Below are positions 6,173 to 49,105 of a DNA stretch of 64,000 bases, in pieces (the stretch's first letter is position 1; the number at the start of each line of letters is the position of its first letter). Made by a program: the position numbers and the translations under genes. Origin of the DNA: Chryseobacterium sp. MFBS3-17 (lineage in GTDB: Bacteria; Bacteroidota; Bacteroidia; Flavobacteriales; Weeksellaceae); the NCBI RefSeq assembly GCF_020687745.1, contig NZ_JAJEWK010000012.1:62001-126000 (forward strand), given 5' to 3'. The notes below the pieces were generated by a model. The model saw only the letters and a program-made list of their open reading frames with translations, was not told the origin of the DNA and made no database searches.

Positions 6173-6202
6173 TTGCTGGTTCATAAAATTGTTGTACTTT
6201 TG
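6173..6202 (+). promoter_or_regulatory. rpsO promoter
   Basis: TTG at 6173-6175, a 19-base spacer and TACTTTTG at 6195-6202 form a near-ideal Bacteroidota housekeeping promoter. The leader to the ATG at 6239 is about 30 bases. Confidence 0.8.
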
Positions 6203-6238
6203 CACCTCGTTACATAATAATCATTAAATAATATTTGC

Positions 6239-6508
6239 ATGTACTTAACATCAGAGAAAAAAGCAGAAATCTTCGCTAAGCACGGAGGAAAAGCAGAAAA
6301 CACAGGTTCTGCAGAAGGTCAAATTGCATTGTTTACCTTTAGAATTAACCACCTTACAAGCCACCTGAAGGCGAATCACAAAGATTACAATACAGAAAGA
6401 TCTCTTGTAAGACTGGTAGGTAAAAGAAAAAGCTTACTGGATTATCTTAAGAAAAAAGATATTGCAAGATACAGAGCAATTATTGCTGAACTGGGTTTAA
6501 GAAAATAA
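6239..6508 (+). CDS. rpsO: 30S ribosomal protein S15
   Basis: The 89-residue length and the motifs GSAEGQIALFTFRINHLTSHL and LVGKRKSLLDYLKKKD match S15, a primary 16S rRNA binder of the small-subunit platform. The start is MYLTSEKK. The gene is monocistronic, between a strong promoter and a strong terminator. In many bacteria rpsO is next to pnp. Here pnp lies 1.9 kb away, separated by two genes. Confidence 0.97.
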   Translation: MYLTSEKKAEIFAKHGGKAENTGSAEGQIALFTFRINHLTSHLKANHKDYNTERSLVRLVGKRKSLLDYLKKKDIARYRAIIAELGLRK

Positions 6509-44949: not shown

Positions 44950-45050
44950 AATGATTATTTTCTTTAGCATAGGTTCTCAAAATTTTTGCCAAATAACAAA
45001 GATGGACATTTCGGCAGTTTTAAAGATGAATTAGGTGTTGATAATTAAAT

Positions 45051-45081
45051 TTGTTAGACTGGGCTAACATTTCTATATTTG
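45051..45081 (+). promoter_or_regulatory. Promoter of the TonB-dependent receptor
   Basis: TTG at 45051-45053, a 20-base spacer and TATATTTG at 45074-45081 precede the ATG at 45100. The spacer is almost filled by the palindrome described separately. Confidence 0.75.
45052..45069. promoter_or_regulatory. Palindromic operator TGTTAG-N6-CTAACA (copy 1)
   Basis: TGTTAG-actggg-CTAACA lies between the -33 and -7 boxes of the receptor promoter, where a bound repressor would block RNA polymerase. The same arms occur at the mntH promoter 4 kb away. The form resembles DtxR/IdeR-type iron or manganese boxes (TTAGG-x-TAA type). Confidence 0.7.
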
Positions 45082-45099
45082 CAGTATAATTACTGTTCC

Positions 45100-47199
45100 A
45101 TGAAACCTGTTTTTTCTATTTTCGCAGCATTCAGCATCCTCTTGTGGTCGGGGCAGAGTCAGTTGTTCGCTCAGCGTGATTCCATTGCTACGTCTTCCCT
45201 GGATTCAATCCGGATTTCAGACCAGCAATTTAAAACTTCCGACATTGATGAAATTGTGATTTCCGGAACCATGAAAGCGGTGAACAGACTGGAAAGTCCG
45301 GTTCCGGTGGAGGTGTACAGTGCTGCATTCTTCCGGAAAAACCCTACTCCCACAATATTTGACGCACTGCAGAATGTCAATGGCGTCCGTCCGCAACTGA
45401 ACTGCAATATCTGCAACACCGGAGATATCCACATCAATGGTCTGGAGGGTCCCTATACCATGGTTTTAATTGACGGAATGCCCATTGTGAGTTCGCTGGG
45501 TACGGTGTACGGACTTTCCGGAATTCCTAATGCAATGGTAGAACGGATTGAAATCGTGAAGGGGCCGGCTTCATCTTTGTACGGCAGTGAGGCGGTAGGC
45601 GGACTTATTAATATCATCACGCGGAATCCGCAGCAGGCACCGGTTTTTTCGGCAGATGTGATGTCCACCGCCTGGGGCGAGTATAATGCAGATGTAGGTT
45701 TTAAAATCCATGCCGGTGATAAAGCATCTGTTTTAACGGGTTTGAATTATTTTAATTATCAGAATATAACAGATGATAACCACGATCATTTTACCGATGT
45801 CACGCTGCAGGACCGGATTTCCGTTTTTCAGAAATGGAATTTCCGTCGGAGGGAAAACCGTTTGTTCAGTCTTGCTGGCAGATACGTGTATGAAGACCGG
45901 TGGGGCGGAGATGTACGGTGGAATCCATCCTACAGGGGTGGCAGTGAAATATATGGCGAAAGCATCTATACCGGCAGAGCCGAAATCATAGGAATGTACC
46001 AGCTCCCGGTGAAAGATCCTGTGTTTTTCGGGTTTTCATTCATCAGCCATAATCAGGACAGCCGCTATGGGGATACGTCTTATATTGCGCATCAGAACAT
46101 TGCATTCGGACAGGTTACCTGGGATAAAAAGTATGGAAAACATGACCTGCTGGCCGGTGCTGCACTCAGATATTCATTTTATGAGGATAATACAGCTGCC
46201 ACTGCTCATGAGGCGGAACAGACCTGGCTTCCCGGCATCTTTCTACAAAATGAAATGGATCTGGCCTCCGGGCATACACTGTTACTGGGAGCCCGCTATG
46301 ATTTCCATTACCATCATGGATCTGTTTTTACGCCCAGACTGGCTTATAAATGGTCTTTGAATGATACCAGTATCTTAAGATTCAACGCAGGAACCGGTTT
46401 CCGGGTGGTGAATCTGTTTACCGAGGATCATGCGGCACTCACCGGAGCCCGGGAAGTTATTATTCTGAATGATCTGAAGCCTGAGAAATCGTATAATGTG
46501 AACCTGAATTTCATTAGGAAAATTTATCTGGACACAGGAAGTTCTCTTGCTCTGGAAGCGAGCGCATTTTATACGTATTTTACCAACAGGATAGTCCCGG
46601 ATTATGAAAACCCGCAAAGCATTGTGTATGATAATATGAATGGACATGCGGTAAGCAAAGGCTTGAGCCTTAATGCAGACCTGAATTTTGCAAGAGGTTT
46701 AAAGTTGATTCTTGGCGGCACCTTTATGGAAAATGAAACCACTGTAAATGGTCAACGGACACAGCAGATGCTCACTGAAAAATTTAGCGGTACCTGGGCG
46801 GCTTCCTACAAAATACGACCATGGAATCTGACGGTGGATTATACCGGAAATGTCTTCGGACCGATGCGATTGCCACTTGCCGGTGAGCTGGATCCCAGAC
46901 CCGCAATGTCACCGTGGTGGAGCCTGCAGAATGTTCAGATGACGTTTAGCGGATTTAAAAATTTTGAGGTGTATGGTGGCGTCAAAAATCTGCTGAACTG
47001 GACGCCAGGCCGACATACTCCTTTTTTAATTTCCCGCACAGAAGATCCTTTTAATCAGCAGGTGGAATACGGTCCGGGCGGTCAGGTGATTGCTACACCG
47101 GGTAATCCGTATGCGCTCACTTTCGACACTGCCTATATGTATGCACCCAATCAGGGAATCAGAGGGTTTCTAGGCATCAGATTCAGATTAGATCAGTGA
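45100..47199 (+). CDS. TonB-dependent outer-membrane receptor (metal or metal-chelate)
   Basis: From MKPVFSIFAAFSILL the protein is 699 residues: a signal peptide, a plug domain (IDEIVISGTMKAVNRLESPVPVEV split over 49-72, then VLIDGMPIV and IEIVKGPASSLYGSEAVGG), and a C-terminal barrel ending FLGIRFRLDQ. The plug carries NCNICNTGD with Cys102 and Cys105, an unusual CxxC. Uptake of an iron, haem or other metal complex is inferred from the operator shared with mntH. Its stop overlaps the ATG of the thioredoxin-like gene (TGATG). Confidence 0.88.
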   Translation: MKPVFSIFAAFSILLWSGQSQLFAQRDSIATSSLDSIRISDQQFKTSDIDEIVISGTMKAVNRLESPVPVEVYSAAFFRKNPTPTIFDALQNVNGVRPQLNCNICNTGDIHINGLEGPYTMVLIDGMPIVSSLGTVYGLSGIPNAMVERIEIVKGPASSLYGSEAVGGLINIITRNPQQAPVFSADVMSTAWGEYNADVGFKIHAGDKASVLTGLNYFNYQNITDDNHDHFTDVTLQDRISVFQKWNFRRRENRLFSLAGRYVYEDRWGGDVRWNPSYRGGSEIYGESIYTGRAEIIGMYQLPVKDPVFFGFSFISHNQDSRYGDTSYIAHQNIAFGQVTWDKKYGKHDLLAGAALRYSFYEDNTAATAHEAEQTWLPGIFLQNEMDLASGHTLLLGARYDFHYHHGSVFTPRLAYKWSLNDTSILRFNAGTGFRVVNLFTEDHAALTGAREVIILNDLKPEKSYNVNLNFIRKIYLDTGSSLALEASAFYTYFTNRIVPDYENPQSIVYDNMNGHAVSKGLSLNADLNFARGLKLILGGTFMENETTVNGQRTQQMLTEKFSGTWAASYKIRPWNLTVDYTGNVFGPMRLPLAGELDPRPAMSPWWSLQNVQMTFSGFKNFEVYGGVKNLLNWTPGRHTPFLISRTEDPFNQQVEYGPGGQVIATPGNPYALTFDTAYMYAPNQGIRGFLGIRFRLDQ

Positions 47200-47771
47200 T
47201 GAAACTTCAGCATTACATCCTCAAAATAATTGTAGCGGGCAGTTTGGTGCTTGCGCAAACAGCTGCTGCTCAGTTGCCGCATCACCAGATTGCGGACATT
47301 GAGCAACTTCAGAAACAGGAGGAAAGAAACATGGTTATTTTTGTGTATACCGACTGGTGTACGTATTGCAAAGCGATGGAGCATACCACGTTTAGAAACA
47401 AGGGTCTCCTAAAAATCCTCAGTGATCAGTTTTATTTCATCCGTTTCAATGCAGAAGAAAGAGCAGAAGTTTTATGGAATCATCAGTGGTTCCGGTATCA
47501 ACCGACGGGAAGGGGTACCGGCACGCATCAGCTGGCAATTGAGCTGGCTCAGAAAGAAGGCTCTTATCCGTTAATAAACATTCTGGACAAAGATTACCAA
47601 ATACAGTTTCAGTACAGTGGTTTTTTATCTGCAGAAGATCTGCAGCAAATACTGCGGCAGTTTCTGAAATGGGGTAGTATTTATCAGCATTTTGTTTTAA
47701 GGTTAAACAAATCCGTCTTCAAAAAAAGTTTGATAGAGCAGGTACAGATTCAGCACGATAATGATGAATGA
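47199..47771 (+). CDS. Exported thioredoxin-like protein
   Basis: The 190-residue protein has a signal peptide (LKIIVAGSLVLAQTAAAQ) and a thioredoxin fold with the active site DWCTYCK (Cys54, Cys57), followed by cis-Pro-like YPLINILDKD. It is expected in the periplasm. Start and the receptor stop share bases, so the two are translationally coupled. I infer a reductase for the receptor or its substrate. Its last 69 bases overlap the 3' end of mntH on the other strand. Confidence 0.85.
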   Translation: MKLQHYILKIIVAGSLVLAQTAAAQLPHHQIADIEQLQKQEERNMVIFVYTDWCTYCKAMEHTTFRNKGLLKILSDQFYFIRFNAEERAEVLWNHQWFRYQPTGRGTGTHQLAIELAQKEGSYPLINILDKDYQIQFQYSGFLSAEDLQQILRQFLKWGSIYQHFVLRLNKSVFKKSLIEQVQIQHDNDE

Positions 47772-49046
47772 AATAATCCATGCCACGATTTTCAGCCATG
47801 GTTTGTTCACAAAAATTCCCATTTTCAGTTTATCTCCGGTGAACATGACCAGCGGAACCACCGCAAAACTCAGTTGCATGGACAAAATAACTTGACTGAG
47901 AACCAGCAGATCAGCAGTACCGCCTTCGCCGTACATGATGGTCACGAAAAAAGCTGGCACCACAGCAATAAGCCTGGTAATCAGTCTTCGCAGCCATGGT
48001 TTGAGTTTGATGTTGAGAAAGCCTTCCATTACAATCTGTCCTGCCAGCGTACCCGTGAGGGTAGAATTTTGTCCGGAGGCCAGCAGGGCGATGGCAAATG
48101 CAATACTGGCAAGGCTGGTGCCCAACAGCGGTTCCAGCATGCGGTGTGCATCATGAATATCTGCAATGTCATGATTGCCACTGGTGTGAAAAGTAGCGGC
48201 TGCCACGATGAGAATGGCCGCATTGATGAAAAAGGCGAGAAACAGAGATGCAGTACTGTCTATGGTGGCGAATTTAATGGCTTCGCGTTTTCCGGGTGTG
48301 GTGCGGTCATAATTTCGGGTCTGTACAATGCTGCTGTGCAGATACAGATTATGGGGCATAACGGTAGCTCCCAGAATTCCGATGGCAATGTACAGCATAG
48401 AGGGATTGGTGACAATTTCCTTGTCCGGAACCAGCCCCCTCAGAATCGGGAAAATTTCCGGCTGGGAAATAACCATCTGATAGGCAAAACAAATCAGAAT
48501 AATGAAAATGAGACCGCCTACAATGCTCTCCAGCCAGCGGAAACCCCGGGCTTGCAGCAACAAAATTACGAAAACATCTACGATAGTGATGGCAACTCCC
48601 CAACTGAGGGGGATGCCAAAAAGGAGGTTCAGGGCAATGGCCGTTCCCAGGACTTCGGCAAGGTCCATGGCGGCAATGGCAATTTCGCAGAACAGCCAAA
48701 GAATGAAATTCACCACGGGATGAAAATGATCTTTACAGGCCTGAGCCAGATCCCGCTCTGCCACTACGCCCAGTTTCACGGACAGATGCTGCAGGATGAT
48801 GGCAAAAAGGTTGGATATCAGAATCACCGACAGCAGGGTGTACCCGAACTGCGCACCCCCGGCAATATCTGTAGCCCAGTTTCCAGGATCCATATAGCCT
48901 ACCGCCACCATCAGACCCGGACCTGCAAACGCAAAAAGTTTTTTCCAGAATCCTGCATCTTTAGGGATTTCCACAGAAGCAAAAGATTCAGATAAGGAAT
49001 TGGAACTGCGCTCTGACCGCCACGCTTTTCTAAACGGATTATTCAT
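47703..49046 (-). CDS. mntH: Nramp-family divalent metal (Mn2+/Fe2+) transporter
   Basis: The 447-residue inner-membrane protein has about 11 helices and the Nramp metal-site motifs: DPGNWATD (53-60) in helix 1 and MPHNLYLHS in helix 6. It imports Mn2+ or Fe2+ with protons. The N-terminal 30 residues are a polar tail. The promoter is near-ideal and carries the TGTTAG/CTAACA palindrome at the expected transcription start, so repression by a metal-loaded regulator is likely. Confidence 0.93.
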   Translation of the reverse strand: MNNPFRKAWRSERSSNSLSESFASVEIPKDAGFWKKLFAFAGPGLMVAVGYMDPGNWATDIAGGAQFGYTLLSVILISNLFAIILQHLSVKLGVVAERDLAQACKDHFHPVVNFILWLFCEIAIAAMDLAEVLGTAIALNLLFGIPLSWGVAITIVDVFVILLLQARGFRWLESIVGGLIFIILICFAYQMVISQPEIFPILRGLVPDKEIVTNPSMLYIAIGILGATVMPHNLYLHSSIVQTRNYDRTTPGKREAIKFATIDSTASLFLAFFINAAILIVAAATFHTSGNHDIADIHDAHRMLEPLLGTSLASIAFAIALLASGQNSTLTGTLAGQIVMEGFLNIKLKPWLRRLITRLIAVVPAFFVTIMYGEGGTADLLVLSQVILSMQLSFAVVPLVMFTGDKLKMGIFVNKPWLKIVAWIISFIIIVLNLYLLYQTFFEDGFV

Positions 49047-49052
49047 TTTGAA

Positions 49053-49070
49053 TGTTAGATTAACCTAACA
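49053..49070. promoter_or_regulatory. Palindromic operator TGTTAG-N6-CTAACA (copy 2)
   Basis: TGTTAG-attaac-CTAACA abuts the -7 box of mntH and covers the predicted start of transcription, 6 bases before the ATG (49046). On the minus strand it reads TGTTAGGTTAATCTAACA, close to DtxR/IdeR consensus sites. Confidence 0.75.
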
Positions 49071-49098
49071 AAAGTACATCATTTCATCTAATTTGCAA
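49069..49098 (-). promoter_or_regulatory. mntH promoter
   Basis: On the minus strand TTG (49098-49096), exactly 19 bases and TACTTTTG (49076-49069). Confidence 0.8.
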
Positions 49099-49105
49099 AT
49101 TTTCT

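Follow-up and report, generated by a model that had tools for sequence, protein, structure and literature searches.

Two copies of the palindrome TGTTAG-N6-CTAACA, one at each outer end of an island comprising a TonB-dependent receptor, a thioredoxin-fold protein and mntH, probably serve as operators through which the only DtxR-family, MntR-like repressor of Chryseobacterium sp. MFBS3-17 shuts two metal-uptake units when manganese is sufficient; we put the probability of this reading at roughly 0.8. The arrangement, in which what appears to be a single metal-sensing repressor governs, through two matching operators, a manganese importer as well as an outer-membrane receptor and its thioredoxin-like partner, recurs in many relatives. 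Both copies lie in the window (the whole stretch of DNA analyzed here, 64,000 nucleotides) at the positions assigned by an earlier sequence-only reading, and its description of the promoters also held on checking: the receptor operator falls within the spacer, the mntH operator abuts the -7 box, and the boxes are well formed (Table 1). Bacteroidetes promoters take the form TTTG, approximately 19–21 bases, TAnnTTTG, and both promoters match it.

Table 1. Features of the metal-uptake island and its promoters (window coordinates)
Feature	Position	Strand	Basis or remark
-33 box TTTG, receptor promoter	45050..45053	+	Sequence; boxes named as in Bacteroidetes promoters
Operator copy 1, TGTTAGACTGGGCTAACA, in promoter spacer	45052..45069	.	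Perfect match; conserved before receptor orthologues
-7 box TATATTTG, receptor promoter	45074..45081	+	N20 after -33 box
TonB-dependent receptor, 699 aa from ATG 45100	45100..47199	+	Plug PF07715, barrel PF00593
C-N-I-C in receptor plug, residues 102-105	45403..45414	+	Both cysteines in 90/90 aligned
Thioredoxin-fold protein with CTYC	47199..47771	+	PF13098, PF13899
mntH, Nramp importer, 447 aa	47703..49046	-	PF01566, 445 bits
Operator copy 2, plus-strand TGTTAGATTAACCTAACA	49053..49070	.	Perfect match; ends 6 nt before mntH ATG
-7 box TACTTTTG, mntH promoter	49069..49076	-	Last two box bases are the first two operator bases
-33 box TTTG, mntH promoter	49096..49099	-	N19 before -7 box

The thioredoxin-fold gene starts within the receptor stop codon (TGATG), its ATG having one base in common with it; mntH converges on this pair from the opposite side, and its 3′ end runs 69 bases into that of the thioredoxin-like ORF (47703-47771). 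MntH scores above its subfamily cut-off (NF001923, 641 bits versus 430). The receptor, whose nearest named relatives are in Epilithonimonas, Kaistella and Chryseobacterium, is left without a named subfamily because all of its family-profile matches fall far below their cut-offs, and the nearest folds of its AlphaFold2 model are general receptors (CirA, FepA and BtuB); mean pLDDT is 75 but drops below 50 over the stretch that holds the plug cysteines (model residues 73-99). Among 90 aligned receptors, the window included, the plug C-x-x-C is present in all (CNIC in 81, CSVC in nine), a count biased for C-x-x-C in that QLNCNICN was among the query peptides that retrieved 80 of the 90; Cys102, Cys105, His111, His317, His406 and His444 are invariant in the same 90. 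The nine receptors found through the DNA motif are of the CSVC type and keep the same Cys and His residues. A C-x-x-C also occurs in 42/42 of the downstream thioredoxin-fold proteins found, a set that includes the window and counts some species twice. At 191 aa, the window thioredoxin-like protein is longer than most of the downstream relatives recovered, which have 151–165 aa. Elsewhere in the window, Rfam matches mark an S15-Flavobacteria ribosomal protein leader (6195-6241, +) and a tRNA (345-425, -).

A search of the whole genome (2.64 Mb, given as 99.66% complete) returned two perfect matches to TGTTAG-N6-CTAACA, both of them the window copies, against a chance expectation from base composition of ~0.23 sites per genome. 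Relaxing the pattern brought no excess: with up to two mismatches the genome holds 50 sites compared to 93 for a reversed-pattern control, and with up to three the window holds 15 compared to a shuffle mean of 21.9. Outnumbered by the control at two mismatches, loose matches are thus noise. Eight of the 48 imperfect sites with ≤2 mismatches were inspected, four with one mismatch and four with a perfect core; six overlap an ORF of at least 90 aa, and the two intergenic ones (L005 and L189) have no evident metal-uptake gene downstream. A P-type-ATPase-like ORF lies upstream of the L005 match.

The link between the motif and metal genes emerges across the family. Of 148 family genomes, 92 carry the perfect motif, with 131 occurrences in all, compared to 49 occurrences of the reversed control in 41 genomes. 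Among the 75 perfect sites listed of the 131, 74 stand just before MntH (42 sites, at 4–41 nt) or a receptor orthologue (32 sites, at 24–123 nt), and all 30 perfect sites that were fetched precede one or the other (21 and nine, respectively). This pattern is at odds with random occurrence unconnected to metal genes, and it supports the proposal of the sequence-only reading that the receptor and thioredoxin-like genes belong with the Nramp importer to a single DtxR/MntR-type regulon. The one listed site of the 75 that is off both targets, in G140, has no evident metal gene beside it; this third perfect site (L267, G140:C4:977783-977800) lies within a longer intergenic inverted repeat. A reverse test started from the genes, using the operator core TTAG-N6-CTAA and base shuffles of every region as controls. 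The core was present upstream of MntH in 30/30 best matches (shuffles, 10/600), upstream of the receptor in 27/30 loci (11/600), and near the MntH start in 14 of 20 further genomes chosen for wider genera (4/400). The six core-less MntH loci in the last set belong to three genomes without the regulator described below (G001, G003 and G014) and three with it (G017, G025 and G098); G003 and G017 have a core ~400 nt from MntH. The three regulator-bearing cases and the three of 30 receptor loci without a core are counterpoints to the proposed regulon. Promoter geometry recurs together with the core: a TAnnTTTG box begins 8 nt before it at 38/46 MntH operators and 19–22 nt after its start at 18/27 receptor operators. 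A second Nramp type, at 51–55% identity and with frames of ~620–674 aa that are longer than MntH, was also seen (G016, G041, G098, G127 and others).

The operator extends beyond the family. A receptor-locus search that included the peptide QLNCNICN yielded 242 related stretches, the best 80 of which come from what we take, from record titles, to be Flavobacteriales, Sphingobacteriales, Cytophagales and Chitinophagales. A perfect core lies ≤400 nt upstream of the receptor in 75 of these 80 loci; the full 18-base motif is perfect in six and has one mismatch in 27, with shuffle controls covering one locus only, and a TTTTAG-N6-CTAAA form is common. A DtxR-family gene is divergent within 1 kb in 43/80 loci and present anywhere in the locus in 61/80, and MntH is present within the locus in 23/80. 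A thioredoxin-fold gene directly 3′ of the receptor was found in only 25/80 loci and in 17/30 of a second set (L220-L249), which appears to overlap in species with the first (L017-L096); this patchy pairing is a further counterpoint to the proposed regulon.

The regulator of the window genome is encoded apart from both targets. The sequence-only reading had noted that no regulator gene is present in the window, correctly so: the sole match in the genome to PF02742, the DtxR-family dimerisation domain (98.3 bits, cut-off 27), is a 216-aa protein on another contig (G000:C8:13923-14573). Its nearest solved relatives are 6o5c, 5zr4, ScaR and SloR, with IdeR and DtxR scoring lower. We aligned the metal sites using the IdeR, MntR and ScaR residues given in the accessible part of PMC4805248. 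The ligand pattern is strongly conserved: Glu101, Glu104 and His105, corresponding to the Glu, Glu and His of the MntR site, are the same in 91/91 aligned relatives, as are Glu82, Asp125 and His127, which occupy the places of ScaR Glu80, Cys123 and His125. The Met-Cys-Glu-His primary site of IdeR/DtxR is absent: Asn9 stands in place of the Met and Glu101 in place of the Cys. Judged from these residues, the predicted metal site lies nearer to that of MntR than to that of IdeR, and manganese-type sensing is more likely than iron-type, if not proven; the choice of metal is uncertain because the Asp of the known MntR site is Asn in this regulator (Asn9) and in 87/91 relatives, the other four having Asp. 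Alignment position 81 divides the regulators into two types, with Trp in 58/61 relatives (L017-L126) versus Thr in 26/30 from the family search (L127-L156).

The choice of metal is where the strongest rival arises, namely that the DtxR-family protein does read the operator but senses iron, in the manner of IdeR/DtxR, or both metals, in which case the regulon would be one for iron or mixed Fe/Mn uptake. Both Fe(II) and Mn(II) are substrates of Nramp proteins, and this counts for iron or mixed sensing together with the Asn in place of the MntR Asp. A further point is that P. gingivalis MntR binds both metals in vitro, according to the accessible text of PMC4805248. Against these stand the Glu that replaces IdeR Cys102 in 91/91 relatives, the scores of ScaR and SloR, far above those of IdeR and DtxR, and an MntH that exceeds the Mn-importer cut-off; we consider iron or mixed sensing unlikely.

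The joint absence of regulator and operator argues that the two belong together. PF02742 is matched in 143/148 family genomes (in G028, at C8:874155-874364, the match is inside a 431-aa frame, twice the usual length and possibly a fusion). The five genomes without it (G001, G003, G014, G059 and G101) contain zero perfect motifs and give no match to the window genome's regulator up to E 10. Four of the five keep an MntH homologue, and the core is near mntH in none of these four, as against 55 of 58 genomes that have the regulator (30/30 + 14/17 + 11/11; Fisher 6e-5, with related genomes not being independent). The last 11 are regulator-bearing congeners of the regulator-less genomes (four further g2 and seven further g16); the other two of the four regulator-less cases (g4 and g14) are each the sole sampled member of their genus. 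In G001, a receptor orthologue with two in-frame stops (G001:C1:1360809-1362857) has no operator; its g2 relatives have one at the receptor in 4/4 inspected. Together with the core found before the receptor in wider Bacteroidota, the absence of the operator from genomes that have no DtxR-family gene strengthens the case for the single regulon.

These genomes also bear on the idea that another regulator, e.g., Fur, reads the palindrome. Fur is present in the window genome, and in many bacteria TonB receptors are under its control; however, 5/5 regulator-less genomes keep Fur yet contain no perfect motif, and none of the four with an MntH homologue has the core near it, which ties the operator to a DtxR-type protein instead and makes a Fur-read palindrome very improbable. 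The genome's one DtxR/MntR-family regulator is the likely reader. Coincidence as the source of the two palindromes, which the G140 site and the lack of surplus near matches (window and genome alike) might suggest, is already refuted by the conservation of the motif before the same two genes.

We posit that when manganese is sufficient, MntR loaded with its presumed effector Mn(II) would bind directly to both operator copies, sitting between the -33 and -7 boxes at the receptor and covering the -7 box and the start region at mntH; RNA polymerase would be unable to initiate because MntR sits on both promoters. When manganese is scarce, MntR would leave the operators, relieving repression and opening a two-membrane uptake route in which the TonB-powered receptor, with manganese as its putative substrate, and its thioredoxin-fold partner act together with the inner-membrane MntH. 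A more tentative extension, which we regard as possible though doubtful, is that the receptor is redox-gated within a shared Bacteroidota MntR regulon: the plug C-x-x-C, with the invariant histidines, would have to be reduced to take manganese, and its redox state would be set by the co-transcribed thioredoxin-fold protein, so that manganese entry would be coupled to oxidative stress.

Few bacteria have a known route for manganese across the outer membrane, and the present analysis offers a candidate receptor family, an operator and a likely regulator for a large part of Bacteroidota. The simple operator pattern can be used to find the regulon elsewhere, and the regulator-less genomes serve as natural knock-outs. 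The results also suggest that Bacteroidota commonly carry a counterpart of a receptor-thioredoxin module described as sparse in its distribution.

That module comes from the closest known system, described in the accessible text of PMC13217887 (2026). In S. maltophilia, MntR controls mntH, mntP and a locus encoding a CQNC-type TonB receptor and a periplasmic thioredoxin-fold protein (pTFP), and mntR deletion derepresses mntH and the receptor locus; the authors raise the possibility that pTFP reduces the plug CQNC. The likeness includes MntR-type control of mntH and of a receptor/periplasmic thioredoxin-fold pair, a plug C-x-x-C, and an operator placed between the promoter boxes (-35/-10 in S. 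maltophilia) at the receptor and just before mntH; in the window, as in that module, a thioredoxin-fold gene adjoins the receptor. The systems differ in the plug motif, which is CNIC or CSVC here and exactly CQNC in 0/90 receptors, in the operator, an 18-bp TGTTAG-N6-CTAACA here versus a 25-bp palindrome there, and in the mntP site, none of which was seen here. Module synteny is reported for Lysobacterales, Sphingomonadales and Opitutales, and no word beginning with "Bacteroid" occurs in the accessible text. CQNC-like relatives in plasmids, seven records all at ≤27% identity, were rejected.

Other systems share single elements. PgMntR of Porphyromonas gingivalis is likewise a DtxR-family manganese regulator in Bacteroidota that binds a manganese-transporter promoter; unlike the regulator here, it has two FeoA domains, an Asp-Cys-Glu-His site and the FeoB-type transporter FB2 as its target, and TonB is absent from the accessible text of that paper (PMC4805248). 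ScaR and SloR of streptococci, the closest named solved relatives over the full regulator length, share the Glu-Glu-His and secondary-site places; the regulator here has Asn for Asp and Asp for Cys123. MnoT of Burkholderia thailandensis, a TonB-dependent outer-membrane manganese receptor likened here by its description in the accessible text of PMC13217887, has as its partner a T6SS-secreted manganese-binding protein, unlike the receptor here. In the accessible parts of two further sources, a TonB receptor and MntR stand side by side in a list of Elizabethkingia features with no regulon stated (PMC8768576), and Riemerella is credited with an MntH homologue (PMC10434265); the open-access papers listed include no report of a manganese TonB-receptor regulon in Bacteroidota. 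Comparing the receptors by description, we read the system as a probable Bacteroidota variant, with its own operator, of the plan published for Stenotrophomonas.
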